From Chitinophaga vietnamensis (lineage in GTDB: Bacteria > Bacteroidota > Bacteroidia > Chitinophagales > Chitinophagaceae), in the NCBI RefSeq assembly GCF_902167635.1, contig NZ_CABHMS010000011.1, positions 64,501-128,500 of the forward strand: DNA of 64,000 bases. The letters are read 5' to 3'. Positions 14,616 to 54,163 of the stretch are shown here, piece by piece (positions within the stretch are counted from its first letter, which is position 1; each line of letters begins with the position of its first letter). The notes under the pieces were generated by a model that saw only the letters and a list, made by a program, of their open reading frames with translations, was not told the DNA's origin and ran no database searches. A program made the translations under genes and the position numbers.

Positions 14616-16151
14616 ATGTCCAATAAAGACGCATTTCTTGAGAGTATAAAGAATGGTTACACTTTTAAAGGCGAGCATTTCAAACTCGGCTGCGCCATGC
14701 TGGATGGTGAAGTGGTGGCAGGCGCGGATGTATACCTTCCGCTGAAGACCATGAACCGTCATGGTTTGATCGCCGGAGCCACTGGTACCGGTAAAACCAA
14801 AACCTTGCAGGTGATTGCCGAAGGCCTCAGCGATGCCAGTGTGCCCGTATTACTGATGGATATCAAAGGTGACCTTAGCGGCATTGCCGCGGCAGGCGCC
14901 AGCAACGATAAAATAACAGAGCGCTACCAGAAGATCGGCGGCAGCTGGAGCCCCGCAGCCTATCCTGCCGAACTGCTCTCCCTCAGCCAGGAGAAAGGAG
15001 TGCGCCTGCGTGCTACCACCAGCGAATTCGGTCCTATCCTGCTTTCTAAAATATTAGAGCTGAATGATACGCAGGCAGGCGTTGTAGCCATGCTGTTCAA
15101 ATATTGTGATGATAACAAACTGCCGCTACTGGACCTGAAAGACTTCAAGAAAGTACTGCAATATGCCAGCGATGAAGGAAAAGCCGATCTGGAAAAAGAT
15201 TACGGCAAGATATCCACCACCTCCACCGGCACCATCCTCCGCAAAGTGATTGAGCTGGAACAACAGGGCGCCGAGCTTTTCTTTGGTGAAAAATCCTTTG
15301 AAGTGGATGACCTCCTGCGCATCAGCGATGATGGCCGCGGCATGGTATCTATCCTCCGGGTGAATGATATACAGGACCGCCCCAAACTCTTCTCCACCTT
15401 CATGCTCAGCCTCCTGGCCGAATTATATGCCACCATGCCGGAAGAAGGCGACCTCGATAAACCCAAGCTGGTAATGTTCATTGACGAAGCGCACCTCATC
15501 TTCAACGAAGCCAGTGATGCATTGCTCAAACAAATAGATACAATCATTAAACTGATACGTTCCAAAGGTATTGGCATCTTCTTCTGTACACAGAACCCGA
15601 TGGATGTTCCGGCCTCCGTGCTCGGACAGCTGGGACTCAAAGTGCAGCATGCCCTCCGCGCATTCACGGCCAATGACCGTAAGTCTATCAAGCAAACAGC
15701 GGAGAACTACCCGCTGTCCAATTTCTACAAAACAGATGAGCTGCTGACGCAGATCGGTATCGGTGAAGCCCTGATCACTTGTCTGGACGAAAAAGGCGTA
15801 CCCACCCCGCTGGCCGCTACCATGCTGGTTTCCCCCCGCTCACGCATGGACGTGCTCACCGATGGCGAGATCGACAACATCGTAAACAGTTCCAAACTGG
15901 TGAAGAAATACGCCGAAACAATCGATAACGAAAGCGCTTACGAAATACTCACTGCCAAATTGCAGGAAGCTGCGGAAAAATCTGCGGCCGCTCCCGCATC
16001 CGGTGGTAAAGCGAAAGAAGAAAAGAGTGTGCTCGACCAGGTGCTCGACAGCTCCGTTGCCCGCCAGGTGGGCCGCACCGCCGCCAGTGTCATTACCCGT
16101 AGCATCCTCGGCGCACTCGGGCTTGGTGGCAAAAGCAAAAGACTTTTTTGA
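14616..16151 (+). CDS. HerA-like / DUF853 ATPase
   Basis: A 511-residue cytoplasmic P-loop ATPase of the HerA-FtsK superfamily, DUF853 branch (YjgR type). Walker A GATGTGKT at 54-61, MDIKGDLSGIAAAG, Walker B VMFIDEAHLIF, an arginine-finger-like FCTQNPMDVPASVLGQLGLK block, and a basic C-terminal tail rich in Ala/Ser (QVGRTAASVITRSILG). The biological role of the family is unclear; it is usually a singleton not associated with a nuclease, and no NurA-like gene is adjacent here. Its TGA stop codon is the first three bases of an 8-bp repeat array (see repeat at 16149). Confidence 0.88.
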   Translation: MSNKDAFLESIKNGYTFKGEHFKLGCAMLDGEVVAGADVYLPLKTMNRHGLIAGATGTGKTKTLQVIAEGLSDASVPVLLMDIKGDLSGIAAAGASNDKITERYQKIGGSWSPAAYPAELLSLSQEKGVRLRATTSEFGPILLSKILELNDTQAGVVAMLFKYCDDNKLPLLDLKDFKKVLQYASDEGKADLEKDYGKISTTSTGTILRKVIELEQQGAELFFGEKSFEVDDLLRISDDGRGMVSILRVNDIQDRPKLFSTFMLSLLAELYATMPEEGDLDKPKLVMFIDEAHLIFNEASDALLKQIDTIIKLIRSKGIGIFFCTQNPMDVPASVLGQLGLKVQHALRAFTANDRKSIKQTAENYPLSNFYKTDELLTQIGIGEALITCLDEKGVPTPLAATMLVSPRSRMDVLTDGEIDNIVNSSKLVKKYAETIDNESAYEILTAKLQEAAEKSAAAPASGGKAKEEKSVLDQVLDSSVARQVGRTAASVITRSILGALGLGGKSKRLF

Positions 16152-16238
16152 TTTGCGAATTTTCATATTTAGAAATTGTATTGGTATTTTGTTGTTTGAC
16201 AAATCAAAAAATTCGTAAATCAAAAAATTCATAAATCT
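16149..16238. repeat. 8-bp ATTT-type array, forward then inverted
   Basis: Three forward units (TGATTTGC, GAATTTTC, ATATTTAG; 16149-16172) are separated by 26 nt from five in-register reverse-complement units (ACAAATCA, AAAAATTC, GTAAATCA, AAAAATTC, ATAAATCT; 16199-16238). The array starts in the stop codon of the HerA-like gene and ends 2 nt before the ATG of the oxidoreductase. Confidence 0.65.
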
Positions 16239-16240
16239 TT

Positions 16241-17290
16241 ATGGGCAGAGTTATTAAGACCGGTGTTTGCTCCTATGGTATGTCAGGACAGATATTTCAC
16301 GCCCCCTTCCTGCATGTAAATCCGGGTTTTGAATTTACCGCAGTAGTGGAGAGAAGTAAGCATACCGCGCAACAACGTTACCCTGATGTGAAAGTATACG
16401 CCAGTGTACCCGATATGCTGGCCGATCCATCGCTGGACCTCATCGTGGTGAACACGCCCAACTATACCCACTTCGACTACGCCAAAGCCGCGCTGGAAGC
16501 AGGGAAAAACGTGATCGTGGAAAAGCCGTTCACCGTAAAACAGGAAGAAGCAGCAACATTGATCAAACTGGCGGAAGAAAAAAAATTATTGCTCAGCGTG
16601 TATCATAACCGCCGCTACGACAGCGATTACAAAGTTGTGAAAAGCGTGATCCAATCCGGCGACCTTGGTGAAATACTCGAAGCAGAAATACACTACGACC
16701 GCTTCAAGGAAGAGCTGAGTTATAAAAAACACAAGGAACAGGCATTGCCCGGAACCGGCGCCCTGTACGACCTTGGCTCACATCTGATCGATCAGGCGCT
16801 CACTATTTTTGGCTTGCCAAATGCCGTGTGGGCGGACATCCGCATCATCCGCAAAGATTCTGTGGTAGATGATTATTTTGAACTGGTACTGTATTACGAC
16901 AAACTGCGTGTACGCCTGAAATCCAGCTACCTGGTGCGGGAAGCGCTGCCAGCCTACCAGGTGCATGGCCGTATCGGTTCTTTCATCAAATCAAAATCAG
17001 ATATACAGGAAGCGCAGCTGCAAAAAGGCCTCTTCCCTAACAGTCACGACTGGGGCGCCGAAGCGCCGCATGAATGGGGATTGCTGCATACAGAAAAAGA
17101 TGGTAAAGTACTGAAACAGTATATTCCCGGCGGCAGCGGCAATTACATGGACTATTACCAGGGCATCTATGAAGCGCTGGTAAATCATGCGCCCAATCCG
17201 GTTACACCACAGGACGGCGCTAATGTAATACGTGTGATAGAAGCTGCTTTTGAAAGCAGCAACACAGGGAAAGTAGTGCCTTTCAAATAA
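16241..17290 (+). CDS. Gfo/Idh/MocA family oxidoreductase
   Basis: A 349-residue NAD(P)-dependent oxidoreductase. N-terminal Rossmann domain (VCSYGMSGQIFHAPFL, a variant GxxG loop), nucleotide-site EKPFTV at about 93-98 with the conserved Glu-Lys-Pro, then the C-terminal beta-sheet substrate domain with DLGSHLIDQAL carrying the catalytic-area Asp and His. The GMSGQIFHAPFL variant and NRRYDSDYKVVK are typical of the YdgJ/scyllo-inositol-type branch in Bacteroidota, but substrate is not inferable. A terminator follows that overlaps the end of recQ. Confidence 0.88.
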   Translation: MGRVIKTGVCSYGMSGQIFHAPFLHVNPGFEFTAVVERSKHTAQQRYPDVKVYASVPDMLADPSLDLIVVNTPNYTHFDYAKAALEAGKNVIVEKPFTVKQEEAATLIKLAEEKKLLLSVYHNRRYDSDYKVVKSVIQSGDLGEILEAEIHYDRFKEELSYKKHKEQALPGTGALYDLGSHLIDQALTIFGLPNAVWADIRIIRKDSVVDDYFELVLYYDKLRVRLKSSYLVREALPAYQVHGRIGSFIKSKSDIQEAQLQKGLFPNSHDWGAEAPHEWGLLHTEKDGKVLKQYIPGGSGNYMDYYQGIYEALVNHAPNPVTPQDGANVIRVIEAAFESSNTGKVVPFK

Positions 17291-17299
17291 ATACTTCTT

Positions 17300-19231
17300 T
17301 TAAGCCCCGCTCCTTGCGGGGCTTAGTTTTCCCGTCTCGTCTCTTTTTATCAATCCCTCCTCTTCCATATACTGCAATACTTCCAGCAGGTCGTTTGTAC
17401 GTACATCCGTCATTTTTGCCTGTAGGTCTTTATAGGGTAAAGATGTGCCGTTCAACAGCGATATAACGTGATCGGATATACGTTTAAAAGCAGCGGCATC
17501 CAGTGGAACCGCTTTTTTCCGCAGACAGGCATCGCATACACCGCAGGCGGGCGTATCCTTCTCCCCGAAATAGGCCGTGAGCTGCTGTGTGCGGCAGGTA
17601 TGGCCATTGCGGGCATAGGCAAACATGGCTTCCAGTCTTTCGGTGTAAGCCTTCTTTCTGATCTCTACCCGCGCCATATTGATGCGCAGGTTGGCAGCTG
17701 ATACACGTTCCTGTAAAAAGCAGAGCTGTGGCTCATCACGGCGGGGATAGTAATGTATGATGCCGTATTGATGTAACTGTTGCAGTTGCGCCGCGATATC
17801 GTCATCTTCCATCAACATAATGCGCCCGATCTGTCTTTCATAGATGGGCACCGCATGATCGAAGATGCCTTCATAGGTACGGAGCAATGTTTGAATAATT
17901 TCTACGAGAGAAGGGACCGCGCTTTCAAATTCATACAGCGCATCCTTGTTGGTCACAAATTCCGCACGGGATGGCAGCAGCACACTTTCGCTCAGTTGCA
18001 GCAATCCTTCCTGTTCCAGCAGGCGAATGGCGCTGTAGGCGATCGTGAGGTTGAGCTGGAAGGTGCGGGCGAAGTCGTTGATATCAAAATCGAAGTACAC
18101 GCCCTCTGCGCTGCCCACAGGCACTTGCAAATAGTTGACGATACATTGGTATACTTCCCGGATCTGCTCGAGTGAGGGGAATTGCAGGGCAATGCGTGTG
18201 TGCATGTCCGTTAGTTCCTCTTCATTATAGAGCAGTACGGCATAGGCTTTCTGTTCGTCTCTGCCGGCACGGCCGGCTTCCTGATAATAGGCTTCGGGGC
18301 CATCGGGCATGTCATAGTGCAGCACGATACGCACATCGGGTTTATCGATGCCCATGCCGAAAGCATTGGTACATACCATTACACGGGTATCGTTGTTGAT
18401 CCAGGCTTCCTGCCGGGAGGCGCGCTCCGCCTGCGGCAGGCCCGCATGATAGTGGCTGGCAGGGATACCCTGCAACTGCAACAGCGAGGCGATCTCTTTG
18501 GTGCGCTTGCGGTTGCGGCAATAGATGATAGCGCTGCCGGGAACACGGTCGAGGATATGTTTGATCTTATCGATCTTGGTGGTTTCTTCCAGTACGCTAT
18601 AGGAGAGATTGGCGCGGGCAAAGCTTTTCGTAAAAATCTGCGGGTCCTGCATCAGCAGTTTATCACAGATATCTGCCTGCACTTTAGGAGTGGCAGATGC
18701 CGTGAGCGCCAGCACCGGCGTGCCGGGGAAGAAGCCGCGTATCTCTGCGATCTGCAGATAAGCAGGCCGGAAATCATATCCCCATTGGGAGATACAATGC
18801 GCTTCGTCTACCGCGATCAAGTTCACGGGGAGACCATCGCAATAGGTCTGAAATAATTTACTCTGTAACCTTTCCGGCGATACATAGAGAAACTTGCAAC
18901 GTCCGCGGCGAGCCGCTTCCATGGCCTTTTCTACTTCTTTGTAATGCATGCCGGAATAGATGGAATAGGCGGTGATACCCCGTTTCTTGAGATTGGCCAC
19001 CTGGTCTTTCATGAGGGCGATGAGTGGTGTGATCACCAGGCAGAGCCCGGGTTTCATCATGGCTGGCACCTGAAAGCAAATGGATTTACCACCGCCGGTA
19101 GGTAGTAATGCGAGCGTGTCGCGGCCCGCCAGTACAGCATTTACAATATCTTCCTGTAAAGGTCTGAACTGGTCGTATCCCCAATATTGCTTCAGTATGG
19201 CGACAGGTGTGCCCAAAGTGATAATGGTCAT
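17300..19231 (-). CDS. recQ: RecQ-family ATP-dependent DNA helicase
   Basis: A 643-residue superfamily 2 3'-5' helicase. Motif 0 GYDQFRPLQ, Walker A LPTGGGKS (44-50), DEAH box in VDEAHCISQWGYDFRP, motif III LALTASATPKV, helicase C with CTNAFGMGIDKPDVR and the Q-x-x-G-R-x-x-R-like YQEAGRAGRD. It continues with an RQC winged-helix part whose zinc cysteines are seen as CRTQQL...CGVCDAC. The C-terminal segment is short and I see no clear HRDC domain. The last codons (SPARSGA) are written by the terminator hairpin at 17302-17324. It is a paralogue typical of Bacteroidota; whether another RecQ exists cannot be judged. Confidence 0.93.
   Translation of the reverse strand: MTIITLGTPVAILKQYWGYDQFRPLQEDIVNAVLAGRDTLALLPTGGGKSICFQVPAMMKPGLCLVITPLIALMKDQVANLKKRGITAYSIYSGMHYKEVEKAMEAARRGRCKFLYVSPERLQSKLFQTYCDGLPVNLIAVDEAHCISQWGYDFRPAYLQIAEIRGFFPGTPVLALTASATPKVQADICDKLLMQDPQIFTKSFARANLSYSVLEETTKIDKIKHILDRVPGSAIIYCRNRKRTKEIASLLQLQGIPASHYHAGLPQAERASRQEAWINNDTRVMVCTNAFGMGIDKPDVRIVLHYDMPDGPEAYYQEAGRAGRDEQKAYAVLLYNEEELTDMHTRIALQFPSLEQIREVYQCIVNYLQVPVGSAEGVYFDFDINDFARTFQLNLTIAYSAIRLLEQEGLLQLSESVLLPSRAEFVTNKDALYEFESAVPSLVEIIQTLLRTYEGIFDHAVPIYERQIGRIMLMEDDDIAAQLQQLHQYGIIHYYPRRDEPQLCFLQERVSAANLRINMARVEIRKKAYTERLEAMFAYARNGHTCRTQQLTAYFGEKDTPACGVCDACLRKKAVPLDAAAFKRISDHVISLLNGTSLPYKDLQAKMTDVRTNDLLEVLQYMEEEGLIKRDETGKLSPARSGA
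17302..17330 (+). terminator. terminator hairpin shared with the recQ 3' coding end
   Basis: A 9-bp stem AAGCCCCGC/GCGGGGCTT (17302-17310, 17316-17324) with a 5-nt loop, followed by AGTTTT on the plus strand and AAAAG on the minus strand. The last base of the recQ stop codon complement and the final codons of recQ are inside the stem. Confidence 0.75.
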
Positions 19232-19262
19232 TGGTAAGATTGCAATTTACCAATAACTGCTG

Positions 19263-21440: not shown

Positions 21441-21596
21441 GAATTTAGGGATTTACGGATTTACGGATTTACGGATTTACGAATTTGAGGATTTACGGAT
21501 TTATTTGCTATATAAATATTTAAATTAATCTAAATATATCCATCCTCTTTAAATCAAAAAATTCGAAAATCCGAAAATCCTTAAATTTGTAAATGC
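21441..21596. repeat. 8-bp tandem array (GGATTTAC) with inverted partner array
   Basis: Eight consecutive octamers run from 21441 to 21504: GAATTTAG, four perfect GGATTTAC, GAATTTGA, GGATTTAC, GGATTTAT. After 44 nt of A/T-rich spacer, six reverse-complement octamers follow in register from 21549 to 21596 (TTAAATCA, AAAAATTC, GAAAATCC twice, TTAAATTT, GTAAATGC). The tsaE start codon is inside the last unit and its promoter box spans the last two. Confidence 0.75.
21582..21589 (+). promoter_or_regulatory. -7 promoter box (TAAATTTG) of tsaE, inside the repeat
   Basis: It matches TAnnTTTG and ends 3 nt before the ATG at 21593; if used, the mRNA would be leaderless. The box itself is made of repeat units. 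Confidence 0.4.
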
Positions 21597-22030: not shown

Positions 22031-22032
22031 TG

Positions 22033-22072: not shown

Positions 22073-23290
22073 ATGGAGCAAAGGCAAAAACCTGTAGTGA
22101 GTGCCGGCTTTACTTATTCACCGCTGGAAGAGACGCTGGATATACCGCAAAAAAACTCCCGCTTATACATTGGTATCCCGAAAGAGGTATCCTTCCAGGA
22201 AAACCGTATTGCCCTGACACCCGATGCAGTAAGCATTTTGGCTGCCCACGGACATCATATCGTAGTGGAACATAAAGCCGGCGATGGCTCCCATTACTAC
22301 GACACCGACTATTCCGAAGCCGGTGCGGAAATCGTTTACGACAAGAAAGAAGTGTTCAAAGCGGAGATCATCGTGAAATCCGCCCCCCTCACTGATGAAG
22401 AGATAGAGATGCTGCACCCGCACCAGATCATCATCTCCCCCATCCACCTGGCCGCCCTCAAGGCACAACAGGTGCAGAAGATGATGGACAAACGTATCAC
22501 GCTCCTCTCTTTTGAAAACCTCAAAGATGATGCTGGTACCTACCCTATCGTGCGCGCTATGAGCGAGATCGCCGGCGGCGCCGTAATGCTCATTGCCGGG
22601 CAATACCTGAGCAATGGCAACAAAGGTAAGGGCATCCTGCTGGGAGGCATCACCGGTATCCCTCCCACCAAAGTGGTGATCATCGGCGCAGGCATCGTAG
22701 GGGAATTTGCCGCCCGCACCGCCATGGCGCTGGGCGCATCTGTAAAGGTATTTGACAACAATATCTATAAACTGAAACGCCTGCAGAACAATATCGGCGT
22801 TCGTGTATTCACCTCCGTTATACAACCCAAAGTACTGGCCGAACAACTGCGTAATGCCGACGTGGCCGTAGGCGCGCTGTCATCACAAAGCGGCCGTACG
22901 CCAATTGTAGTGACAGAATCGATGGTGAGTAATATGAAAGCCGGCTCTGTGATCGTAGATGTGAGCATCGACCGAGGCGGCTGTTTTGAAACCTCCGAGA
23001 TCACCAGCCACGAAAACCCGGTATTCAAAAAGTACGACGTAGTGCACTATTGTGTGCCCAACATACCATCCGGCTTTGCCCGTACCGCTTCAGAAGCCAT
23101 CAGCAACGTACTGATGCCGCTGCTCATAGAAGCCGCTGACGACGGCGGTTTCGAGAACCTCGTATGGATCAAGCGTGGCGTACGTAATGGCATCTACCTG
23201 TATAAAGGTGCGCTCACCAATTACCACCTGAGTGAAAAATTCAAATTGAAATATACTGACCTGGAACTGCTGCTGGCAGTGAAGGGCTAA
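22073..23290 (+). CDS. ald: alanine dehydrogenase
   Basis: A 405-residue NAD-dependent alanine dehydrogenase / pyridine-nucleotide transhydrogenase-like protein: reversible L-alanine to pyruvate plus ammonia. An N-terminal extension of about 32 residues precedes IGIPKEVSFQENRIALTP. Active-site features are Lys in IIVKSAPL, His in IISPIHLA and Asp in VSIDRGG. The nucleotide-binding loop is VIIGAGIVGEFAA. It is slightly longer than classical Ald (about 370), as usual for Bacteroidota members. The stop codon is the first arm of a perfect 63-bp inverted repeat. Confidence 0.9.
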   Translation: MEQRQKPVVSAGFTYSPLEETLDIPQKNSRLYIGIPKEVSFQENRIALTPDAVSILAAHGHHIVVEHKAGDGSHYYDTDYSEAGAEIVYDKKEVFKAEIIVKSAPLTDEEIEMLHPHQIIISPIHLAALKAQQVQKMMDKRITLLSFENLKDDAGTYPIVRAMSEIAGGAVMLIAGQYLSNGNKGKGILLGGITGIPPTKVVIIGAGIVGEFAARTAMALGASVKVFDNNIYKLKRLQNNIGVRVFTSVIQPKVLAEQLRNADVAVGALSSQSGRTPIVVTESMVSNMKAGSVIVDVSIDRGGCFETSEITSHENPVFKKYDVVHYCVPNIPSGFARTASEAISNVLMPLLIEAADDGGFENLVWIKRGVRNGIYLYKGALTNYHLSEKFKLKYTDLELLLAVKG

Positions 23291-23417
23291 CCAGGATTAA
23301 ACGGATTTATAAGATTAATAAGATTTTACGGGGAGATTTTCTGGAAGATTAAAATAATCTTCCAGAAAATCTCCCCGTAAAATCTTATTAATCTTATAAA
23401 TCCGTTTAATCCTGGTT
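23289..23417. repeat. perfect 63-bp inverted repeat filling the ald-uppP gap
   Basis: Arms 23289-23351 and 23355-23417 are exact reverse complements around a 3-nt AAA loop. They extend from inside the ald TAA stop to inside the uppP TGA stop. GATT recurs at about 9-bp steps in the outer part of the arm. As RNA it would fold into a hairpin of 63 bp, a bidirectional terminator candidate between convergent genes. Confidence 0.9.
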
Positions 23418-29434: not shown

Positions 29435-30283
29435 ATGAGAAAAACAGTACTCACAGCTCTTTGCTGTTTACTGCTCAGCGCCGCTTTTGCACAGGCGCCA
29501 CTGCACGTGATCACCTTTAACATCCGCATGAACACACCCGACGACAGCCTCAATGCATGGCCTTACCGCAAAGACAAAGTAGCCGCTACCGCCCTGTTCT
29601 ACCAGGCCAGCATACTGGGTGTGCAGGAAGCGCTCTATGAACAGATGCAAGACCTCCGGCAGCTGTTGCCACAATATAAGTCCGTAGGCGCAGGCCGGGA
29701 CGATGGAAAAAACGATGGTGAATTTTCTGCTATCTTCTATGATACCACCCGCCTGCAATTGCTGCAAAGCAATACCTTCTGGCTGTCGGAAACGCCCACC
29801 GTGGCGGGCAGCAGAGGCTGGGACGCCGCCTGCAACCGTGTGGTAACATGGGCGCAGTTCAAGGATAAAAAAACCGGCAAGGCTTTCTATCACTTCAATA
29901 CGCACTTCGATCACAGGGGCAAGGTGGCCCGCCGGGAAAGCGCGCATCTCCTGCTGAAACAGGTGCATCACATCGCGGGTAAAACACCCGCCATCATCAC
30001 CGGCGATTTCAACGCCACACCTGATGATGAGCCGATACAAATAGTAATGGATAGCAAAGATCCATTACATCTCACCGATAGCAAGGCGGTCAGCAAAACG
30101 CCACACTTCGGCCCCACCGGCACTTTCAACGGATGGCACATGGCGGAAGAAGAAAATAAACCGATCGATTATATCTTCCTGAAAGGAAAATTCAATGTAT
30201 TAAAGCATGCAACGATCTCTGAAACCTGGGGAGGAAGATATGCTTCAGATCATTTTTCAGTATACGCGGAGTTAACAATGTAA
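29435..30283 (+). CDS. secreted endonuclease/exonuclease/phosphatase-family hydrolase
   Basis: 282 residues with an N-terminal signal peptide (MRKTVLTALCCLLLSAAFAQ, cut after AQ). The EEP fold is shown by ITFNIRMN, ILGVQEA with the metal-binding Glu, FNTHFDHRG, ITGDFNATPDD and the C-terminal SDHFSVYAEL with the catalytic Asp-His pair. Such periplasmic proteins may be phosphodiesterases, nucleases or inositol-phosphatase-like enzymes; substrate cannot be assigned. It converges on the lipoprotein gene across a long palindrome. Confidence 0.87.
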   Translation: MRKTVLTALCCLLLSAAFAQAPLHVITFNIRMNTPDDSLNAWPYRKDKVAATALFYQASILGVQEALYEQMQDLRQLLPQYKSVGAGRDDGKNDGEFSAIFYDTTRLQLLQSNTFWLSETPTVAGSRGWDAACNRVVTWAQFKDKKTGKAFYHFNTHFDHRGKVARRESAHLLLKQVHHIAGKTPAIITGDFNATPDDEPIQIVMDSKDPLHLTDSKAVSKTPHFGPTGTFNGWHMAEEENKPIDYIFLKGKFNVLKHATISETWGGRYASDHFSVYAELTM

Positions 30284-30374
30284 TTTGGTTATTTGATTAT
30301 TTGATCATTTAGATATTTAGGGTCAAGGAAGATCTTCCTTGACCCTAAATATCTAAATGATCAAATAATCAAAT
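30283..30374. repeat. 84-bp perfect palindrome with 8-bp ATTT units
   Basis: 30291-30374 is a perfect palindrome (42-bp arms, no spacer). Counting from 30283, five forward octamers (ATTTGGTT, ATTTGATT, ATTTGATC, ATTTAGAT, ATTTAGGG) lead to a GTCAAGGAAGA/TCTTCCTTGAC core, and four reverse octamers lead away. It fills the gap between two convergent genes. Confidence 0.9.
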
Positions 30375-30381
30375 ACTAAAA

Positions 30382-31146
30382 TCAATCATGTTCGTGGTCA
30401 ACAGACAGGCAATTGTCGTCTTCCAGCTCTTTCACTACTTTGTCGTGTAATCCGCTGTTCACGTCAACATTGATCTGGAGCTTTCCATCCTGGAAGGAGC
30501 CAGTGAAATCGCCCACTTGCAGTTTGCTCAACACCAGGTCCATAGAGAGTTTGAGCTTGCCATGCCAAACAGTGCTGCTGTCAGTAACAACAACATCTTT
30601 GCCCATAGCTTTCAATTCAATAACGCCACTCAGTTTTACTTCTACCGGGATCTTTTTACCATCCCAGGTAAGGCGTCCTTTCAGGAATACAGCCGGGTCT
30701 TTCTTGTCGCCTTGTACTTTCACAAATACCTTTACAAACTGGTAGGTTCCCACAGGAATTTTGATGGCACCAATTTTTCCGGGTAAAGTCAGCAGGTCAA
30801 CATAACGATCAGTAGTAAGTTTGAATTCAACTTGGTCTTTGCCTCTTTTGGCATCGAAACGAATTTCTTTCAAACGTGCTACTGCAGTGTCCCAGGTGAT
30901 GTCGAAACGGCCGGAAGTAGATTTAGCCATTGCTTCATTACCTGTGATCACAGCCAAACGGCCTGATGCATCAGGGCTCAGAGAGGAAGTAGTGTTCGTC
31001 GCTGCGAGTTCATAGTTGACACTGGCTGCGTTCTTCTCATCCATGGGCGCCTGGTCTGGCTTGGCCATGTCGGAGGTGGTACATGAGTACAGCATTGTAG
31101 ATGCCACGCCCATTGCTCCGAATAAGTGGAGGATTCTGGTCTTCAT
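30382..31146 (-). CDS. predicted lipoprotein, DUF4382-like
   Basis: 254 residues with a lipoprotein signal peptide: basic MKTR, hydrophobic core, lipobox MLYSC giving lipidated Cys22. The mature part is beta-rich; TDRYVDLLTLPGKIGAIKIPVGTYQF (positions about 112-137; key residues VDLL and PxGTY) resembles DUF4382 proteins, which are surface or periplasmic beta-sandwich lipoproteins of unknown function. The tail (CLSVDHEHD) is acidic with a Cys. No co-transcribed partner. The DUF4382 match is tentative. Confidence 0.7.
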   Translation of the reverse strand: MKTRILHLFGAMGVASTMLYSCTTSDMAKPDQAPMDEKNAASVNYELAATNTTSSLSPDASGRLAVITGNEAMAKSTSGRFDITWDTAVARLKEIRFDAKRGKDQVEFKLTTDRYVDLLTLPGKIGAIKIPVGTYQFVKVFVKVQGDKKDPAVFLKGRLTWDGKKIPVEVKLSGVIELKAMGKDVVVTDSSTVWHGKLKLSMDLVLSKLQVGDFTGSFQDGKLQINVDVNSGLHDKVVKELEDDNCLSVDHEHD

Positions 31147-34986: not shown

Positions 34987-36015
34987 ATGTCCAATCAGCA
35001 TTTAAGACCAGACGAGAACCGGCTCAGTGCTGCCGAGAAGGAGTTCGAGAACAGTATCCGGCCGAAGGAGATCATGGATTTCTCCGGGCAGGAACAGATC
35101 ATCGAGAACCTGAAGATATTTATCAAGGCGGCCAAAATGCGGGGCGAAGCGCTCGACCATGTATTGTTCCATGGCCCTCCCGGCCTCGGAAAAACCACGC
35201 TGTCGCGCATTGTAGCCAATGAGCTGGGTGTGAACATCCGCGAAACATCCGGACCGGTGATCGAAAAACCCGGCGACCTCGCCGGTTTGCTCACCAACCT
35301 GGAAGACAAAGACGTTCTATTCATCGATGAGATACACCGCCTGAGCACTGTGGTAGAAGAATATCTTTATTCTGCCATGGAAGATTATCGTATCGATATC
35401 ATGATCGACACGGGGCCTAGTGCGCGTTCCATACAGATCAACCTGCAACCGTTCACGCTGATAGGCGCCACTACGCGCTCAGGGCTGCTCACCGCGCCGC
35501 TGCTGTCGCGCTTTGGGATCAAATCGAGGTTGGAATATTATTCTGCTGCTACCTTGCAACAGATCATCTGGCGCGCCGCGGGCCTGTTAGGCACCAAGAT
35601 CACCTCCGATGCTGCGAATGAAATCGCCCGGCGTTCCAGGGGCACGCCGCGTATCGCTAACGGACTGCTGCGCCGTGTGCGCGACTTTGCGCAGGTGATG
35701 GGCAATGGCGTCATCGATCTGGGCATTGCGGAGTTCAGCCTGAAAGCGCTCAACGTAGATGAATACGGCCTTGATGAAATGGACAACCGTATCCTGCAGG
35801 TCATCATCGAAAACTTTAAAGGAGGTCCGGTAGGTATCACTACCATCGCTACCGCAGTAGGAGAAGAGCCGGGCACACTCGAAGAAGTATATGAACCATT
35901 CCTGATACAGGAAGGCTTTATCAAACGTACGCCCCGTGGAAGAGAAGTAACGGAAAAAGCCTACACCCACCTGGGCAAAACGCCCTACAGCCGCGGTAAT
36001 AATTTACTATTTTGA
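34987..36015 (+). CDS. ruvB: Holliday junction branch migration helicase RuvB
   Basis: 342 residues from the ATG at 34987 ([12 protein letters not shown]); the in-frame TTG at 34978 overlaps the promoter box. AAA+ motor of RuvAB: family start [14 protein letters not shown], Walker [13 protein letters not shown], Walker B FIDEIHRL, sensor 1 GATTRSGLL, arginine finger region PLLSRFGI, C-terminal winged helix ([15 protein letters not shown]). Normal length. ruvC is 2.8 kb downstream; ruvA is not here. The TGA stop lies in the first octamer of a palindromic array. Confidence 0.97.
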
Positions 36016-36114
36016 TATTTGGTTATTTAGATATTTTGATAAAATGAAGACGCTCCTGAGATTTCAGGAGCGTCTTCATTTTATCAAAATATCTAAATAA
36101 CCAAATAATCAAAT
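36009..36114. repeat. inverted 8-bp ATTT array around a terminator core
   Basis: Four forward octamers ATTTTGAT, ATTTGGTT, ATTTAGAT, ATTTTGAT (36009-36040) and four in-register reverse octamers ATCAAAAT, ATCTAAAT, AACCAAAT, AATCAAAT (36083-36114) flank GAAGACGCTCCTGA/TCAGGAGCGTCTTC. The paired part 36016-36059 / 36064-36107 is perfect (44 bp, 4-nt loop). It begins in the last codons of ruvB and ends 2 nt before the stop of the response regulator. Confidence 0.88.
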
Positions 36115-36116
36115 GT

Positions 36117-36818
36117 TTAATCCTTCACTACCAGCCTGAATCCATTTCCGTGGATATTTACGATTTCGATATTGTTATCATCTTTCAGGTACTTGCGTAG
36201 TTTAGCGATATATACGTCCATGCTGCGGCCGTTGAAATAAGTATCGCTGCCCCATATTTTTTTCAGTGCCAGTTCACGGGGAAGCAGGTCGTTCTTGTGT
36301 TCGCAGAGCATGTGCAGCAGCTCATTTTCTTTGGGCGACAGCGTATGCGTATCGCCATTGCGGGCGAGGGTGCGCAGCCTGGAATTGAAGGCATAAGACC
36401 CGATCTGGAACTCATGCGTTTCTTCTTCCTTGCTGTTGAGCTCCTGGTTGCGTTTCAGGATCGCTTTTATTTTCAGCAGCAGCAGTTCGCTGTCGAATGG
36501 TTTGGAGATATAATCATCTGCGCCCAGTTTATATCCCTGGATAATATCTTCCTTCATGGTTTTTGCGGAGAGGAAGAACAGGGGAATATCGGGGTCTACA
36601 TCCCGTATCTCTTCTGCCAGTTTAAATCCGTCCATATTGGGCATCATGATGTCCAGCAGGCAGATGTCGAATTTCTCGCGGCGGAAGGCGGCCAAAGCGA
36701 GGATACCGTCGCGGCACAGCTCCACATCATAATCATTCAGCTCCAGGTAATTCTTCAATACCATCCCGAGGTTGGTATCATCCTCTGCCAGTAATATTTT
36801 CGGTTTACGTTCTTCCAT
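36117..36818 (-). CDS. OmpR/PhoB-family response regulator (RprY-like)
   Basis: 233 residues from the ATG at 36818 (MEERKPKILLAEDD); the ATG at 36824 is also possible, while the longer frame from 36878 runs upstream of the promoter box. Receiver domain with ED/D at 12-14 region, phospho-acceptor Asp56 in CLLDIMMPNMDG, Lys in YISKPFD, and a C-terminal winged-helix DNA-binding domain (LSPKENELLHMLCEHKNDLL...). The likely orthologue is RprY of Bacteroides, an aerobic/oxidative-stress regulator. No kinase gene is adjacent. Confidence 0.9.
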   Translation of the reverse strand: MEERKPKILLAEDDTNLGMVLKNYLELNDYDVELCRDGILALAAFRREKFDICLLDIMMPNMDGFKLAEEIRDVDPDIPLFFLSAKTMKEDIIQGYKLGADDYISKPFDSELLLLKIKAILKRNQELNSKEEETHEFQIGSYAFNSRLRTLARNGDTHTLSPKENELLHMLCEHKNDLLPRELALKKIWGSDTYFNGRSMDVYIAKLRKYLKDDNNIEIVNIHGNGFRLVVKD

Positions 36819-40625: not shown

Positions 40626-40626
40626 A

Positions 40627-40702
40627 AGATTTAGGAATTTGAGGATTTCCTGATTTCTTGATTTAAATGCTCACATCAATAAATCAAAAAATCCCAAAAT
40701 GA
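40627..40702. repeat. 8-bp ATTT-type array, forward then inverted
   Basis: Five forward octamers (AGATTTAG, GAATTTGA, GGATTTCC, TGATTTCT, TGATTTAA; 40627-40666) and, after 12 nt, three reverse octamers (ATAAATCA, AAAAATCC, CAAAATGA; 40679-40702). The array starts 2 nt upstream of the HIT ATG. Pairing is imperfect. Confidence 0.6.
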
Positions 40703-40703
40703 A

Positions 40704-40731
40704 AAAGGGTTTACACGAAGTGCAAACCCTG
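40704..40731 (-). terminator. rho-independent terminator after greA
   Basis: Minus-strand stem AGGGTTTGCAC/GTGTAAACCCT with a TTC loop (one G-U pair) and a T5 tail, 27 nt after the greA stop. Confidence 0.8.
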
Positions 40732-43090: not shown

Positions 43091-43100
43091 GATCGAAACG

Positions 43101-43108
43101 CAAAGATA
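43101..43108 (-). promoter_or_regulatory. -7 promoter box (TATCTTTG) of rsmA
   Basis: Mirror image of the pdxA box, 10 nt upstream of the rsmA ATG, in the outer arm of the palindrome. Confidence 0.45.
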
Positions 43109-43230
43109 AGAGAGAATTTACGGATTTGAGGATTTGAGAATTTACGGATTTAGGGATTTACGGATTTATGGATTTGGATAAATCCGTAAATCCATAAATT
43201 CGAAAATCCTCAAATCCGTAAATTCTCTCT

Positions 43231-43238
43231 TATCTTTG
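43231..43238 (+). promoter_or_regulatory. -7 promoter box (TATCTTTG) of pdxA
   Basis: It matches TAnnTTTG and ends 6 nt before the pdxA ATG at 43245: near-leaderless. Confidence 0.45.
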
Positions 43239-43244
43239 CTACAT

Positions 43245-44613: not shown

Positions 44614-44632
44614 GCTGTTGATATTTAAGTGC

Positions 44633-44748
44633 TCGCAAAGCGGCGTAAGGAGCAAAGCAGCAAAGACGCGCTTCGCGCAGATGATCACATTATTTTCTTA
44701 CGCGCGAAGCGCGTCTTTGCTGCTTTGCTCCTTATGCTGCTTTGCGGG
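44633..44748. repeat. long inverted repeat, GCAAAGCAGCATAAG family
   Basis: Perfect 33-bp arms (44646-44678, 44702-44734) with a 23-nt loop, extendable to about 45 bp with a few mismatches. Core units GCAAAGC, AGCAAAGC, AGCAAAGA and CGCGCTTCGCGC. Located between the periplasmic-protein stop and the regulator start, both minus strand. It shares GCAAAGCAGCATAAG with the element at 54077. Confidence 0.85.
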
Positions 44749-44765
44749 AACAAATTAATAAAAAA

Positions 44766-49311: not shown

Positions 49312-49392
49312 AATTATGCTTTTTAAAAAGAGTCGTTAGATAAAATTGAATAACGACAACAGCTTTGCGTGTACGCAGCGGCTGCTGTATGT

Positions 49393-49953: not shown

Positions 49954-49965
49954 ATAGCTAACTTC

Positions 49966-50460
49966 TTAGTTCAGTTTAATTTCTTCTGCCAGTTGTTTAA
50001 CGTAACCTTCCTGTGCTGTTTTATCAGCCAGTTCTCTTCTCAGCACTTTCTCTGCTACTTCGATCACGAGGTTACCTACCTGGTTTTTTACATCCGTTAA
50101 CGCAGCCATTTTCTGGTTCTCGATAGCGGTGTAAGCTTCAGCAATGATCTTCTTCGCTTCTGCCTGCGCCTGCGTTTTGGCTTCCGCGATGATCTGATCT
50201 TTAGCGTCTTTTGCTTCTTTCAGGATCTTGCTTCTTTCTGCTTTGGCTTCAGCCAGTACATGCTCATGCTCTGCTTTCATCTGCGCCATCTCTTCTTTCA
50301 CTCTCTCAGCAGAAGCAATAGAGTCAGCAATGGAACCTTCTCTCTCTTTCAAAGTGGCCAGGATCGGTTTCCAGGCGAACTTTTTCAGGATCAGGAATAC
50401 GATGATAAAGATCAGAAACGAAATAAGAAACAAGCCTAATGCGGGCTGCAACAGATCCAT
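49966..50460 (-). CDS. atpF: ATP synthase Fo subunit b
   Basis: 164 residues: an N-terminal transmembrane helix (LGLFLISFLIFIIVFLILKKFAW) followed by a long Ala/Glu/Lys-rich coiled coil (SIASAERVKEEMAQMKAEHEHVLAEAKAERSK...) that forms the peripheral stalk. A single b gene, so a b2 homodimer is expected. Preceded by 148 nt that hold a decayed repeat array and the hairpin after atpE. Confidence 0.95.
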   Translation of the reverse strand: MDLLQPALGLFLISFLIFIIVFLILKKFAWKPILATLKEREGSIADSIASAERVKEEMAQMKAEHEHVLAEAKAERSKILKEAKDAKDQIIAEAKTQAQAEAKKIIAEAYTAIENQKMAALTDVKNQVGNLVIEVAEKVLRRELADKTAQEGYVKQLAEEIKLN

Positions 50461-50477
50461 ATAAAGAGGATTTTATT

Positions 50478-50560
50478 ATTTGGTTATTTAGTCATTTTTA
50501 AATTTTCGTTTAGTATACCGGAAGTAAATATCAAGATAAATCCCGGAATATCTAAATGAA
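50478..50560. repeat. degenerate 8-bp ATTT array upstream of atpF
   Basis: Four octamers in register, ATTTGGTT, ATTTAGTC, ATTTTTAA, ATTTTCGT (50478-50509), sharing their first unit with the arrays at 30283 and 36017. AAAT-containing reverse units follow less regularly to about 50560. Pairing is weak; probably an eroded member of the family. Confidence 0.45.
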
Positions 50561-50561
50561 A

Positions 50562-50598
50562 TTACTGCATCCCTTGCCCTGTGCGCAGGATGCAGTAA
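50562..50598 (-). terminator. stem-loop between atpE and atpF
   Basis: Arms TTACTGCATCC/GGATGCAGTAA (50562-50572, 50588-50598) with a 15-nt loop. No T run follows, so it is more likely an mRNA-stabilising or partial-termination structure. It lies 11 nt after the atpE stop, where many bacteria boost subunit c output. Confidence 0.5.
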
Positions 50599-50608
50599 GA
50601 AGTTTGGC

Positions 50609-50902
<294 letters not shown>

Positions 50903-52066
50903 TTAGTGATGATCATCATGTCCGCCTTCCATGGCCTGACCAATAAACACTGCGGTCAGGTTAGCGAAGATGAACGCCTGGATAAACGCTACCAGTAACT
51001 CCAGCATCATCATTACAATGTTGAAGAGGATCGTGATAGGCAGGAAGCCGTAACCAGCTACCTTGTTCAGAGAACCAAATATAAATACCAGGGAGATAAT
51101 ACTCAGAATGATAATGTGACCCGCCAGGATGTTGGCAAACAATCGGATCATCAGGGATACCGGCTTGGTGAATACACCGATCAGCTCAACCGGCGCCAGG
51201 ATCAGCTTCACACCGAAAGGTACAGGAGGATTGAAGATGTGAGCCCAGAAATGTTTGTTGGAACTGATCAGAATAGCGATAAAGCTGATAATAGCCAGTG
51301 CCGCCGTTACCGCCAGGTTACCGGTTACGTTGGCAGAACCTGGTAACAGACCCAACAGGTTATTGATAAGAATAAAGAAGAAGATCGTCAGAATAAAAGG
51401 CGTGTATCTTTCATAGTGCTTGCCAGGAATGTTAGGCTTCACTACTTCGTCACGCATAAAGATAATCACCGGCTCCATCAGGCTCTGGAAGCCTTTGGGC
51501 GCCATCTTGGAACCACGGGTCTTGTATGCTTTCGCTACGCTCAGCATGATCACAACCAACAAGATCGCTGCGATCAGCATAGACGTAATATTTTTAGTCA
51601 TAGAAAGATCGTAGATCTTTTCACCGGTGGGATTATCATTGGCATCCACAGCAATCACCTGGCCATCCATGTATTTGGCAGGGTCCAGTCCTTTCTCATG
51701 CAGATAGTGCGCATTCACCAGACGATAACCATCATGCGCTGCATGACCATGATGGAAAGCAGATGACATGAATACAGATGTACCACGTGCAGGATTATAT
51801 ATAATTACAGGTAAAGGCATAGTCACATGCGTTTCACCAATGCTCAGCAGGTGCCAGTCATGCGCATCCTTTACGTGTCCGAGAATTACTTCCTTAGCAT
51901 CAAATTTCTTTGGCTCGGCTTCCTCTCCATGAGCAGCGGCATCAGCAACGTGTTCTGTCGTGGCCGGATGCGCCTCTTCTGCAAAAGAAAAATTACCAAA
52001 ACCGTGAAGGCCTAAAACCATCACAAGTGCTACCATTCTATGTTTGAACTGACTGAAAGAAATCAC
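50903..52066 (-). CDS. atpB: ATP synthase Fo subunit a, Bacteroidota type with periplasmic extension
   Basis: 387 residues, about 120 longer than E. coli AtpB. A signal-like hydrophobic start (MVALVMVLGLHGFGNFSFA) is followed by a His/Ala/Glu-rich extramembrane domain (about 28-150), then the a-subunit helices. Key residues: LMIRLFANILAGH with the stator Arg, and ANLTAVFIGQAMEG near the end. The final HDDHH adds to the histidine richness. The extension is standard for Bacteroidota; its job is unknown. First gene of the operon; TATCTTTG lies 19 nt upstream. Confidence 0.93.
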   Translation of the reverse strand: MISFSQFKHRMVALVMVLGLHGFGNFSFAEEAHPATTEHVADAAAHGEEAEPKKFDAKEVILGHVKDAHDWHLLSIGETHVTMPLPVIIYNPARGTSVFMSSAFHHGHAAHDGYRLVNAHYLHEKGLDPAKYMDGQVIAVDANDNPTGEKIYDLSMTKNITSMLIAAILLVVIMLSVAKAYKTRGSKMAPKGFQSLMEPVIIFMRDEVVKPNIPGKHYERYTPFILTIFFFILINNLLGLLPGSANVTGNLAVTAALAIISFIAILISSNKHFWAHIFNPPVPFGVKLILAPVELIGVFTKPVSLMIRLFANILAGHIIILSIISLVFIFGSLNKVAGYGFLPITILFNIVMMMLELLVAFIQAFIFANLTAVFIGQAMEGGHDDHH

Positions 52067-52085
52067 CGTTTTCTGAAATTTTGCG

Positions 52086-52093
52086 CAAAGATA
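52086..52093 (-). promoter_or_regulatory. -7 promoter box (TATCTTTG) of the atp operon
   Basis: Minus-strand TAnnTTTG ending 19 nt before the atpB ATG. The remaining gap to 52284 is A/T-rich with no other feature I can support. Confidence 0.5.
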
Positions 52094-52284
52094 AACGTTT
52101 TTATCTCAAAAATTCAGCGACTATGAAAAAATATGGTGGGAAGTTTTAACTATATTGATAAACAAGCACTTAGGAAGAGATTTAGTACCTGAAAATATTC
52201 TTTAATATATGCTGTTTTTTAACAAAGGATAGTGTAAAAATCACACATTGATCTATCGGTAATCTTATTAAAAAAAATCATCAA

Positions 52285-54045
52285 CTACACCTTCGTCGCG
52301 TTAAACTGCATACTGTGCAGCTTGTAGTAAAATCCTTCCAGCTTCAACAACTCCTCGTGCGTACCCATCTCCTTGATCTCCCCCTTATCCAGCACAATGA
52401 TCTTGTCTGCCTTACTGATCGTCGACAAACGATGCGCAATGATAATCGCCGTACGCCCCGCAATCAACTTGTCAATTGCCCGCTGGATCAACATCTCTGA
52501 CTCGGTATCTACAGACGATGTAGCCTCGTCCAGAATCAGGATAGACGGATCGTACAACAAAGCCCGCACAAAAGAGATCAGCTGCCGCTGCCCCAGCGAT
52601 AAAGTACTGCCACGCTCCATCACCTGGTAATCGTAGCCGCCCGGCAATTGCATAATGAAATCATGAATACCGATCAGCCGCGCCGCATCCTCCACCTGTT
52701 GCCTCGAAATCGCCGCATTATGCAAAGTGATATTGTCGTAAATAGAACCGGAAAACAGGAACACATCCTGCAATACCACCCCGATCTTGCTCCGGAGCGC
52801 ATGCAGGGAGTAATCAGGCAGGCTCACGCCATCTATCTTGATACTACCCTGCTGTATCTCGTATAAACGATTCAGGATACTGATGATCGTGGTTTTACCA
52901 GAACCAGTATGCCCCACGATCGCCACCGTATCGCCCGGCGCCGCATGGAAATTAATATCCTTGAGCACATAACGGTCTTCCACATACGCAAATGACACAT
53001 GATCAAACGTGATCGCCCCTTTCATGCCATCGGCAGAACGGGTGCCTTTATCCGCAATATAGTCCTCGTTATCCAGCACCTTGAACACACGGTCGCTGGC
53101 CACCATGCCCATTTGCAGGGTATTGAACTTGTCCGCCATCATCCGCAGCGGACGGAACAGCATGTTCAGGTACATGATGAAAGCGATCATCACTCCCTGC
53201 GTTACCTCATAGTTCAGCACCTTATTGGAACCCCACCATACCATCAGCCCCAGCGAGATAGCCAGGATGATTTCCACTACCGGGAAAAATACAGAGTACG
53301 CAAAAATGGCGTCTATATTGGCTTTGCGGTGCTCCCTGTTGATATGCTTGAACCGCGCAAACTCGCGCTTCTCGGAAGTGAACGCCTGCACCACCACCAT
53401 ACCAGTGATATGCTCCTGTACAAACGCATTCAGCGCCGCCACCGCATTGCGCACGCGGTAAAAAGATTTGTTCACACTTTCCTTGAACACATAGGTAGCA
53501 AAGATCAATATCGGGAAGGGCGACAAACTGATCAGCGTCAGCCGCCAGTCTTCCATAAACATCACCACCAATATGGCCACGATCATCAACAGATCCGCCA
53601 CAATGGAAATGATCCCTTCGGAAAATACATCGTTGATCGCTTCAATATCGTTGATGGTACGCGTAGTAAGTGTACCAATGGGTGTTTTATCGAAGAAGGC
53701 CAGGTTCAGGTGCACGATCTTTTTGTAGACCGTTACGCGCAGATCCTTTACCACCGACTGTCCCAGCCAGTTGGTCAGGTAAGAGAAGAAGAACCTTACA
53801 ATGGTTTCCAGCAACAGCAATAATATCTGTACAACTGTCACGATCACCAGCATGCGCATCACCTGGTTCGCGATATATTTATCCACTGTAACCTGTATCA
53901 GATAAGGGCGCAAGGGCGAGATAACCGCCAGCACCACTGTTAACAACATGGAAACGTAAAAAGACCGCCTGTAAGGTGCTGCAAAGGAGAATATGCGCCG
54001 TAATAAACTGAAATCAAATACTTTCTTAACCGCCAGATTTTCCAA
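52285..54045 (-). CDS. ABC exporter, fused permease-ATPase (MsbA-like), TTG start
   Basis: 586 residues from TTG at 54045 (L/MENLAVKKVFDFSLLRRIFSFA). The frame reaches an ATG at 54111, but that lies in a palindrome upstream of the promoter box at 54064, so the TTG is preferred. Six-helix ABC transmembrane domain (about 25-315) then ATPase: Walker A VGHTGSGKTTI, signature LSLGQRQLI, Walker B ILILDEATSSVDT, H-loop IIAHRLSTI. A homodimeric or heterodimeric lipid/drug exporter; the partner and substrate are unknown. Confidence 0.9.
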   Translation of the reverse strand: MENLAVKKVFDFSLLRRIFSFAAPYRRSFYVSMLLTVVLAVISPLRPYLIQVTVDKYIANQVMRMLVIVTVVQILLLLLETIVRFFFSYLTNWLGQSVVKDLRVTVYKKIVHLNLAFFDKTPIGTLTTRTINDIEAINDVFSEGIISIVADLLMIVAILVVMFMEDWRLTLISLSPFPILIFATYVFKESVNKSFYRVRNAVAALNAFVQEHITGMVVVQAFTSEKREFARFKHINREHRKANIDAIFAYSVFFPVVEIILAISLGLMVWWGSNKVLNYEVTQGVMIAFIMYLNMLFRPLRMMADKFNTLQMGMVASDRVFKVLDNEDYIADKGTRSADGMKGAITFDHVSFAYVEDRYVLKDINFHAAPGDTVAIVGHTGSGKTTIISILNRLYEIQQGSIKIDGVSLPDYSLHALRSKIGVVLQDVFLFSGSIYDNITLHNAAISRQQVEDAARLIGIHDFIMQLPGGYDYQVMERGSTLSLGQRQLISFVRALLYDPSILILDEATSSVDTESEMLIQRAIDKLIAGRTAIIIAHRLSTISKADKIIVLDKGEIKEMGTHEELLKLEGFYYKLHSMQFNATKV

Positions 54046-54063
54046 GGTTGTTCCGTTTGTAAA

Positions 54064-54071
54064 CAAAAATA
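54064..54071 (-). promoter_or_regulatory. -7 promoter box (TATTTTTG) of the ABC exporter
   Basis: Minus-strand TAnnTTTG, 18 nt upstream of the TTG start and just outside the palindrome at 54077. Confidence 0.45.
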
Positions 54072-54076
54072 CGATA

Positions 54077-54163
54077 TAATTTCTCGCAAAGCAGCATAAG
54101 CAACAAAGCACGCGGAGAATATCTCTGCGTGCTTTGTTGCTTATGCTGCTTTGCGAGAAATTA
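54077..54163. repeat. 42-bp-arm inverted repeat, GCAAAGCAGCATAAG family
   Basis: Arms 54077-54118 and 54122-54163 pair with one mismatch around a 3-nt loop. The arm contains CGCAAAGCAGCATAAGC and AACAAAGCACGCG. The inner arm end includes the stop codon of the caspase-like gene (54161-54163). Likely acts as a strong terminator of that gene. Confidence 0.88.

Follow-up and report, generated by a model that had tools for sequence, protein, structure and literature searches.

Inverted arrays of eight-nucleotide words past stop codons: a dispersed repeat family in Chitinophaga vietnamensis and some of its relatives, with a possible role at gene 3′ ends

A 64-kb stretch of the Chitinophaga vietnamensis genome (contig NZ_CABHMS010000011.1, positions 64,501 to 128,500), referred to here as the window, carries inverted arrays of 8-bp units with an ATTT core in several of its intergenic gaps. 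An earlier note, made from the letters of the window, had listed seven such gaps and described a strict 8-bp register, an inverted partner run and unit counts that differ between the two sides. A script run over the window finds ATTT runs of at least three units in 8-bp register at 7/7 listed sites and AAAT partner runs of at least three units at six of them. The remaining site, at 50470, had been called eroded and indeed has no AAAT run. Read inward from either end, a paired array spells ATTTnnnn. Unit counts on the two sides do differ, for instance 3 versus 5 at 16149..16238 and 8 versus 6 at 21443..21594. Arrays beginning in a stop codon had also been reported, and the runs at 16149 (TGATTT) and at 30281 (TAATTT) begin with the final A of a stop codon. 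The seven sites are given below with the position and number of units of each run and the z score of the predicted RNA fold.

16149..16238, no strand: ATTT inverted array; ATTT run at 16151 (3 units), AAAT run at 16201 (5 units); fold z -3.4
21443..21594, no strand: ATTT inverted array; ATTT run at 21443 (8 units), AAAT run at 21551 (6 units); fold z -5.4
30281..30383, no strand: ATTT inverted array with a GC-rich core; ATTT run at 30283 (5 units), AAAT run at 30347 (5 units); fold z -16.3
36002..36121, no strand: ATTT inverted array; ATTT run at 36009 (4 units), AAAT run at 36087 (4 units); fold z -17.7
40626..40705, no strand: short ATTT inverted array; ATTT run at 40629 (5 units), AAAT run at 40681 (3 units); weak fold, z -1.8
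43100..43239, no strand: ATTT inverted array; ATTT run at 43116 (8 units), AAAT run at 43180 (6 units); fold z -17.0
50470..50560, no strand: eroded ATTT array, with at least 3 units on the ATTT side only; ATTT run at 50470 (5 units); weak fold, z -1.2

These arrays lie between genes of differing orientation. The first sits in a tandem gap between a HerA-like gene (stop codon TGA, 16149-16151) and a GFO/IDH/MocA gene. Convergent gaps hold the array at 30281..30383, which spans stop codon to stop codon and uses the words GGTT, GATT, GATC and AGAT, and the array at 36002..36121, which has the hairpin core GAAGACGCTCCTGA and lies between ruvB and a response regulator gene. Divergent gaps hold 21443..21594, between a heavy-metal P-type ATPase gene and tsaE, and 43100..43239, between an RrnaAD gene and pdxA, the latter with 61-nt arms that are 93% complementary. 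Bacteroidetes promoters have a -7 box with the consensus TAnnTTTG, which is matched in both divergent arrays. The right edge of the former carries TAAATTTG at the called tsaE ATG (21593), while both outward TATCTTTG boxes of the latter lie inside its arms and so mirror each other.

The host genome (G000, 6.31 Mb) was compared with relatives. Array-rich genomes are the eleven with at least 18 overlapping matches to a five-unit pattern among 79 Chitinophaga genomes, host included; relatives carry G-numbers. The slot of the short array at 40626..40705, between a HIT gene and a greA-like gene, is filled with other words in G030, G029 and G011. Similarly, the slot of the eroded array at 50470..50560, between atpF (49966-50460) and atpE (50609-50866), holds other words in these three genomes and also in G077. 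Directly after atpE, a hairpin (CTGCATCC...GGATGCAG, 50563-50599) adjoins this slot; it is also found in all seven relatives shown for that gap, slightly altered in one.

The 8-bp register extends well beyond the window. Spacing and shuffle counts used a host sample of 1.262 Mb (contig C1, 100 kb of contig C2 and the window; 20% of the genome), in which chains of at least four units number 125 at a spacing of 8 and 40 at a spacing of 16, with 0-1 at every other spacing from 5 to 15. Shuffled gaps had been proposed in the earlier note as one refuting comparison, and they come out in favor of the arrays: 123 of the spacing-8 chains are intergenic, against 0 in each of 20 dinucleotide-preserving gap shuffles. 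In the 6.31-Mb genome as a whole, a four-unit pattern matches 540+575 times, overlaps included, versus 90+104 for a reversed-pattern control, and 44/47 runs of at least four units in the first 400 kb of the host are mostly intergenic. Given the excess at 8-bp spacing and its absence from the shuffles, the dispersed family of intergenic inverted octamer arrays is real. The note had named no described element of this design, and no known family could be matched to it. A literature search over open-licence papers found no description of inverted octamer arrays and came closest with TAACTGA direct repeats and REP surveys; Rfam gave 0 matches above the gathering score in the 64-kb window.

The arrays also have an inward polarity. 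Genes were called with a simple hexamer caller written for this analysis, which places start codons approximately, and gaps were surveyed in four genomes (1.98 Mb). Runs are present in 141 gaps. Their order (F, ATTT; R, AAAT) is ATTT-then-AAAT in 88 and nested FFRR in 3, while 45 are single-sided (F 19, R 26). Rarer orders are RFR (2), FRF (1), RR (1) and FRR (1), and plain AAAT-then-ATTT occurs in 0. Arm complementarity averages 91% over ~34 aligned columns (95 pairs). The median element length is 107 bp in 93 elements, the set also used for the tests on element ends described below, from which 2/95 pairs were dropped.

From their differing cores, the earlier note had concluded that the arrays are not copies of one insertion. 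Comparison of words and cores leads to the opposite result. The arms of G000 contain 63 different words among 582, and the words are position-specific, ACGG being the commonest third word (arms of five ATTT). Word trigrams are common to 29 site pairs, whereas 300 shuffles gave 6.6 on average and 20 at most. The vocabulary depends on the genome: ACGG accounts for 138/582 words in G000 and 5/166 in G030, in which TTTG accounts for 37/166. Among G000 cores of 14-110 nt, 25 of the 46 that are testable match another core above every shuffle, with the largest clusters having 8, 5, 4 and 3 members, and 13/46 contain their own inverted repeat of at least 8 bp (shuffled mean 0.15). In a 138-bp element of G029 (L077, 4712-4849), ATTT arms enclose a core that resembles a terminator and includes a T-tract; among the matches listed, this element recurs at many places in G029, G077, G011, G061 and G070 with 72-89% identity. 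Because cores and arms cluster between sites, the arrays are copies of a repeat family with sub-families.

Other words are used in the same design. Host families of 7-, 8- (CTTTGC) and 9-bp words are arranged like the ATTT arrays, with AATTACG 7-mers at 15 listed host sites and GATT 9-mers at 16 listed sites in 1.26 Mb of the host. Further words are found in relatives, such as TTAGC 7-mers in G020 and AAAGC in G018. Sister sites within the window are the following.

23289..23417, no strand: sister family of 9-bp GATT words; 63-nt arms, 100% complementary; fold z -22.4
44629..44751, no strand: sister family of CTTTGCnn octamers; 50-nt arms, 92% complementary; fold z -15.9
54077..54163, no strand: sister family of CTTTGC-type words; 42-nt arms, 98% complementary; fold z -19.8

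The palindrome at 23289-23417 has a 3-nt loop and fills a whole convergent gap from stop codon to stop codon; a longer outer arm resembling CTCAGGATTATAATGATTGAAAGGATT is found at 14/15 other listed 9-mer sites of the 1.26-Mb host sample. The palindrome at 54077..54163 extends into the stop codon at 54161-54163. Predicted RNA folds are strong (z <= -3.4) at 5/7 ATTT sites and at all three sister sites. In contig C1 near 1094929 (L125), the left half of an AATTACG 7-mer element (arm plus half core) is repeated three times in tandem and followed by one right half.

A strict ATTT register with inward polarity might be expected if, as the earlier note had suggested, a protein with 8-bp spacing bound the arrays. 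Such a protein might act on the nucleoid or as an insulator, or be a regulator in the case of divergent gaps. The genome-specific vocabulary also looks as if it followed a binder. However, sister families in the same genome keep 7- and 9-bp registers, the elements are strongly biased to gene 3′ ends (see below), and no simple binding model requires the arms to pair. We consider a protein-bound array very improbable.

In the same survey, among gaps of at least 50 bp, runs are carried by 37/135 convergent, 84/686 tandem and 12/210 divergent gaps (27%, 12% and 6%; p=2e-8). The first paired base of the array stem lies a median of 1 nt past the stop codon, and within 15 nt of it in 69/76 cases. Other long inverted repeats share this position (median 1 nt; 57/69 within 15 nt). 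Ordinary hairpins in array-free gaps, in contrast, start 18 nt past the stop codon, with 64/148 within 15 nt (p=2e-17 versus arrays). These distances pool rich and poor genomes, and divergent gaps and gaps >400 bp were excluded. Long inverted repeats of any kind occupy 77/166 convergent gaps in rich genomes versus 10/46 in poor ones, and 6/250 versus 0/56 divergent gaps.

Ordinary terminators, defined as a GC-rich hairpin plus T-tract on either strand, are scarcer where arrays are present. They occur in 9/38 convergent gaps with arrays and 76/122 without in the rich genomes (p=3e-5), a comparison confined to gaps of 50-700 bp from which one-armed gaps (6 convergent, 37 tandem and 4 divergent in rich genomes) were excluded. 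Arrays in convergent gaps thus tend to replace ordinary terminators. A hairpin plus T-tract is present in 17/101 convergent and tandem array gaps taken together.

Because of this placement and the scarcity of ordinary terminators, we favor a hairpin acting at the RNA level at gene 3′ ends. On balance, the arrays are probably a dispersed extragenic palindromic family, similar to REP or ERIC, that supplies portable 3′-end hairpins. Each copy has arms of a few 8-nt words, with the ATTT core directed inward, and between them a short core, which forms a hairpin by itself in roughly a quarter of cases. Copies mostly fill the slot directly past stop codons, often from stop to stop between convergent genes, a place in which other genes have an ordinary intrinsic terminator. 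Transcription through such a slot would produce a long hairpin abutting the stop codon, and the same hairpin from both directions. As a portable 3′-end element, this hairpin could stop or slow the polymerase and block 3′ exonucleases, with a possible effect on the ribosome during termination. In E. coli, REPs that lie similarly close to the stop codon, within 15 nt, are reported to lower translation (PMC12306157).

The earlier note had suggested bidirectional termination. This proposal agrees with the placement at gene 3′ ends and with the lower frequency of ordinary terminators in convergent array gaps. Taken as plain intrinsic terminators and nothing else, the arrays would also be explained with respect to their convergent bias and to the GC-rich cores of some copies, which in G029 are accompanied by a T-tract. 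However, the 5′ arm is T-rich and the 3′ arm A-rich, the reverse of a U-tract, and a hairpin plus T-tract is found in only 9/38 convergent array gaps. Tandem copies often leave no room for a promoter downstream, and one copy lies between atpE and atpF. It is hard to believe that plain termination is all the arrays provide.

Several observations weigh against the 3′-end hairpin as well. The difference in terminators is not significant in tandem gaps (8/63 with arrays versus 146/693 without, p=0.14). Fewer than 30 nt separate the array from the next called start in 32/63 tandem copies, an array slot lies within the atpE-atpF gap, and 12/210 divergent gaps carry runs, so tight termination cannot be the whole story. 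Either transcription runs through the tandem copies close to a start and the atpE-atpF copy, or the start codons have been called wrongly. A promoter just after the array was considered and rejected: the TAnnTTTG box occurs in only 6/28 spacers of at least 40 nt, with no clear excess over array-free tandem gaps. Most of the genus also does with few copies or none, 68/79 genomes having at most 5 pattern matches. In addition, most changes within stems go uncompensated. Between G029 and G077, counts summed over 11 of 12 shared sites (site #90 excluded) give 301 unchanged pairs and 14 changed on both sides but still paired, along with 36 one-sided breaks, 9 changes to G-U and 6 two-sided breaks. 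Counting also the hairpins at sites where G029 has no array gives 45 one-sided breaks and 16 changed pairs that still pair. Stem mismatches read in transcript orientation show no excess of G-U over A-C (272:263, p=0.73), nor do those of ATTT arrays alone (96:80, p=0.26). Compensatory selection on the RNA was therefore rejected, a first ratio of 53:34 (p=0.053) having been lost in the larger set. Because G-U pairs are not in excess and stem breaks are mostly one-sided, there is no visible upkeep of pairing at individual positions, and the arrays seem to undergo decay and replacement.

Slots tend to recur between species even as their contents are altered. Recurrence was assessed in small samples around the window with 18 tests, uncorrected. 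Long inverted repeats of G000 and G030 coincide in 4/4 host cases among 43 orthologous non-divergent gaps (p=4e-5), and other genome pairs give p=0.002-0.08. With ATTT arrays alone, five rich pairs give p=0.003-0.07 and a sixth gives 0.17, and the host has no ATTT array in common with G002 or G004 in the orthologous gaps around the window. The gap at 44614 differs in content: the host has CTTTGC words there, and G030, G029 and G011 have ATTT arrays. In 4/12 comparisons, orthologous arrays with their flanks outscore the best non-orthologous pair, so some likeness, partly that of the flanks, is retained between orthologous arrays.

G029 and G077, whose genes have a median identity of 92.8% and which were compared at 170 orthologous gaps, allow a closer view. 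Runs are common to 12 gaps, while seven gaps differ, all with runs in G077 only. Four of the seven are clear (#11, #67, #119 and #167), two of which have an ordinary terminator-like hairpin in G029. Among 11 scorable shared cores, 6 are kept in direct orientation, 2 match better when inverted (28 vs 12; 17 vs 8) and 3 are unrelated. Nested array layers are also observed. Under the portable-hairpin reading, slots tend to be re-used between species but to receive a different copy or a different word family in exchange. Core flips and nested layers could arise through template switching or recombination between arms.

The same features can be read as growth in place, in which template switching and slippage extend existing terminator hairpins outward as far as the coding sequence. 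Stems that end at stop codons, the hairpin kept within 13/46 cores, nested layers, core flips and the lack of a target-duplication excess (below) would all follow. Yet words and cores are common to unlinked sites, and words are specific to their position in the arm. Adjacent words are no more alike than expected at lag 1 (20 vs 20.2), and a likeness appears at lag 2 (24 vs 12.4). Growth alone leaves the shared vocabulary unexplained, and we regard this origin as unlikely. Local slippage as the sole origin was rejected because adjacent words are not alike.

Within the genus, the five-unit pattern is found in 19/79 genomes (host included), eleven with at least 18 overlapping matches and eight with 1-5. 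The rich genomes are G000 (616 overlapping matches), G030 (316), G077 (292), G029 (245), G011 (228), G061 (203), G088 (162), G070 (145), G092 (106), G101 (55) and G069 (18); with the reversed control, G000 has 101 matches and the other ten have 0-13. The second check proposed in the earlier note, a search of related genomes for such arrays, is thus mixed in outcome, with 11/79 genomes rich. In a seven-protein tree of 16 genomes, which covers 8/11 rich genomes (G069, G088 and G092 were left out), the host stands beside the array-poor G016, G017, G022 and G023 (support 0.968), apart from G030 and from the clade of G011, G029, G077, G061, G070 and G101. A single gain by one clade was rejected, as the rich genomes are not united in this tree; loss or horizontal gain may account for the pattern. 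Carriage by phages was sought with one octamer pattern only, other words not being searched, and gave 0 matches in viral contigs.

Full-length RAYT transposase genes (PF01797) are present in 8/11 rich versus 6/68 other genomes (p=1.5e-5), and any RAYT match in 8/11 versus 11/68 (p=3e-4). G030, G011 and G088 are rich genomes with no RAYT match. Nine RAYT loci of ~3.3 kb contain no ATTT run of at least three units. Instead, short GC-rich palindromes (GCCCAGGGCT...AGCCCTGGG) lie on the flanks of most of these loci and are presumably RAYT's own REPs; the single RAYT gene of the host (L192, G000:C4:220711-224055) has 15 CGCCCC...GGGGCG palindromes within 3.3 kb. Similar palindromes also occur elsewhere in contig C1, again in gaps. 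One candidate for the copying mechanism is a RAYT transposase. The link between RAYT and arrays may also be phylogenetic, via the shared ancestry of most rich genomes.

Features of mobile elements were sought at the element ends. REPs and REPINs are defined by a GTAG or CGTC tetranucleotide at the stem foot (PMC3733652). Among the arrays, this tag lies within 8 nt outside the stem foot in 2/93 elements and within the first 12 nt of the left arm in 0. Direct repeats of at least 5 bp within 3 nt of the stem ends, as expected of target-site duplication, were found in 4/93 versus 2.7 expected, the ends being blurred by decay.

A serious rival is that the arrays are purely selfish or neutral palindromes, spread by copying that is perhaps RAYT-aided, and survive, without function, only where they do no damage, namely beside stop codons. 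A distribution that is patchy and not monophyletic, the turnover of arrays between species, the mostly uncompensated decay of stems that show no wobble bias, and the association with RAYT (8/11 versus 6/68 genomes) all suit it. It accounts less readily for slots re-used across species (G000 versus G030, 4/4) or for the lower frequency of ordinary terminators in convergent gaps with arrays, and divergent gaps, which are likewise non-coding, are seldom used (6%). As a full explanation we hold it to be possible but doubtful.

Several known systems resemble the arrays in part. Like REPs and BIMEs, they are extragenic, palindromic, close to stop codons and present in hundreds per genome, with RAYT commoner in the rich genomes. 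Unlike REPs of 20-40 bp, they have arms of 8-nt words, a median length of ~107 bp and no REP tag (2/93 feet); three rich genomes lack RAYT, and the nine RAYT loci have other, GC-rich palindromes in place of ATTT runs. ERIC and MITE-like elements are imperfect palindromes of ~100-140 bp scattered between genes. The arrays are similar in size, intergenic dispersal and possession of related dispersed copies, but have word-periodic arms, varying cores and no target-duplication excess. With intrinsic terminators they share the gene 3′-end slot, GC-rich hairpin cores in some copies and a tendency to mutual exclusion in convergent gaps. They differ in having long stems directly at the stop codon and a 3′ arm rich in A, usually with no T-tract next to a GC-rich hairpin. 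Short fixed-register tandem repeats in gaps are also known from cyanobacteria (STRRs). The TAACTGA heptamers of Beggiatoaceae are short intergenic words in a fixed register, patchy over lineages including some Bacteroidetes; they are repeated directly and mostly lie a short way before start codons (PMC4679880). The arrays, in contrast to heptamers and STRRs, have inverted arms past stop codons and variable words in place of one fixed word.

If the portable-hairpin reading is true, a bacterial group has refitted many of its gene ends with portable hairpins made of words, which exchange positions with ordinary terminators. This would amount to a natural experiment on the requirements of a gene 3′ end. 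It would also define a new class of genomic repeat and would call for caution in annotating operons, terminators and repeats in Bacteroidota. A more speculative idea, which we put forward as improbable but worth stating, is that an undescribed process at the DNA level rewrites stop-to-stop slots with palindromes of lineage-specific 7-, 8- and 9-nt words in Chitinophaga and perhaps other Bacteroidota, leaving no target duplications and swapping word families slot by slot. What is selected or mutationally driven would then be the long word-built palindrome and not its sequence. If the RAYT link were causal, this process would be a new kind of RAYT client.

Beyond the genus, matches become few. 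Class-wide, 30/295 genomes (host included) have a match, never more than 10 outside the host. A scan of a genome collection with a pattern of 27 fixed bases returned 15 stretches, five of them from Chitinophaga solisilvae, C. qingshengii and C. eiseniae. The C. eiseniae and C. qingshengii loci carry inverted arrays, and the C. solisilvae locus has one side only. Five loci were compared with host contig C1, of which one from C. eiseniae and one from C. qingshengii align to it with 72-80% identity over kilobases. Matches in Acinetobacter, Granulosicoccus and Prevotellaceae metagenome-assembled genomes (MAGs) are one-sided, while that of Prevotella UBA4341 looks inverted. Long one-sided tandem ATTTACGG arrays without an inverted partner occur in Acinetobacter sp. 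HY1485 (L181, from 7545; 20 units) and in a Granulosicoccus MAG (L177, from 1385; 17 units). In Prevotellaceae MAGs (L175, L178, L183 and L185), differing arrays of short-period words of the AAATCCGT, AGTTGTA, ATTTCTA and AGTTAGAG types adjoin one another in gaps.

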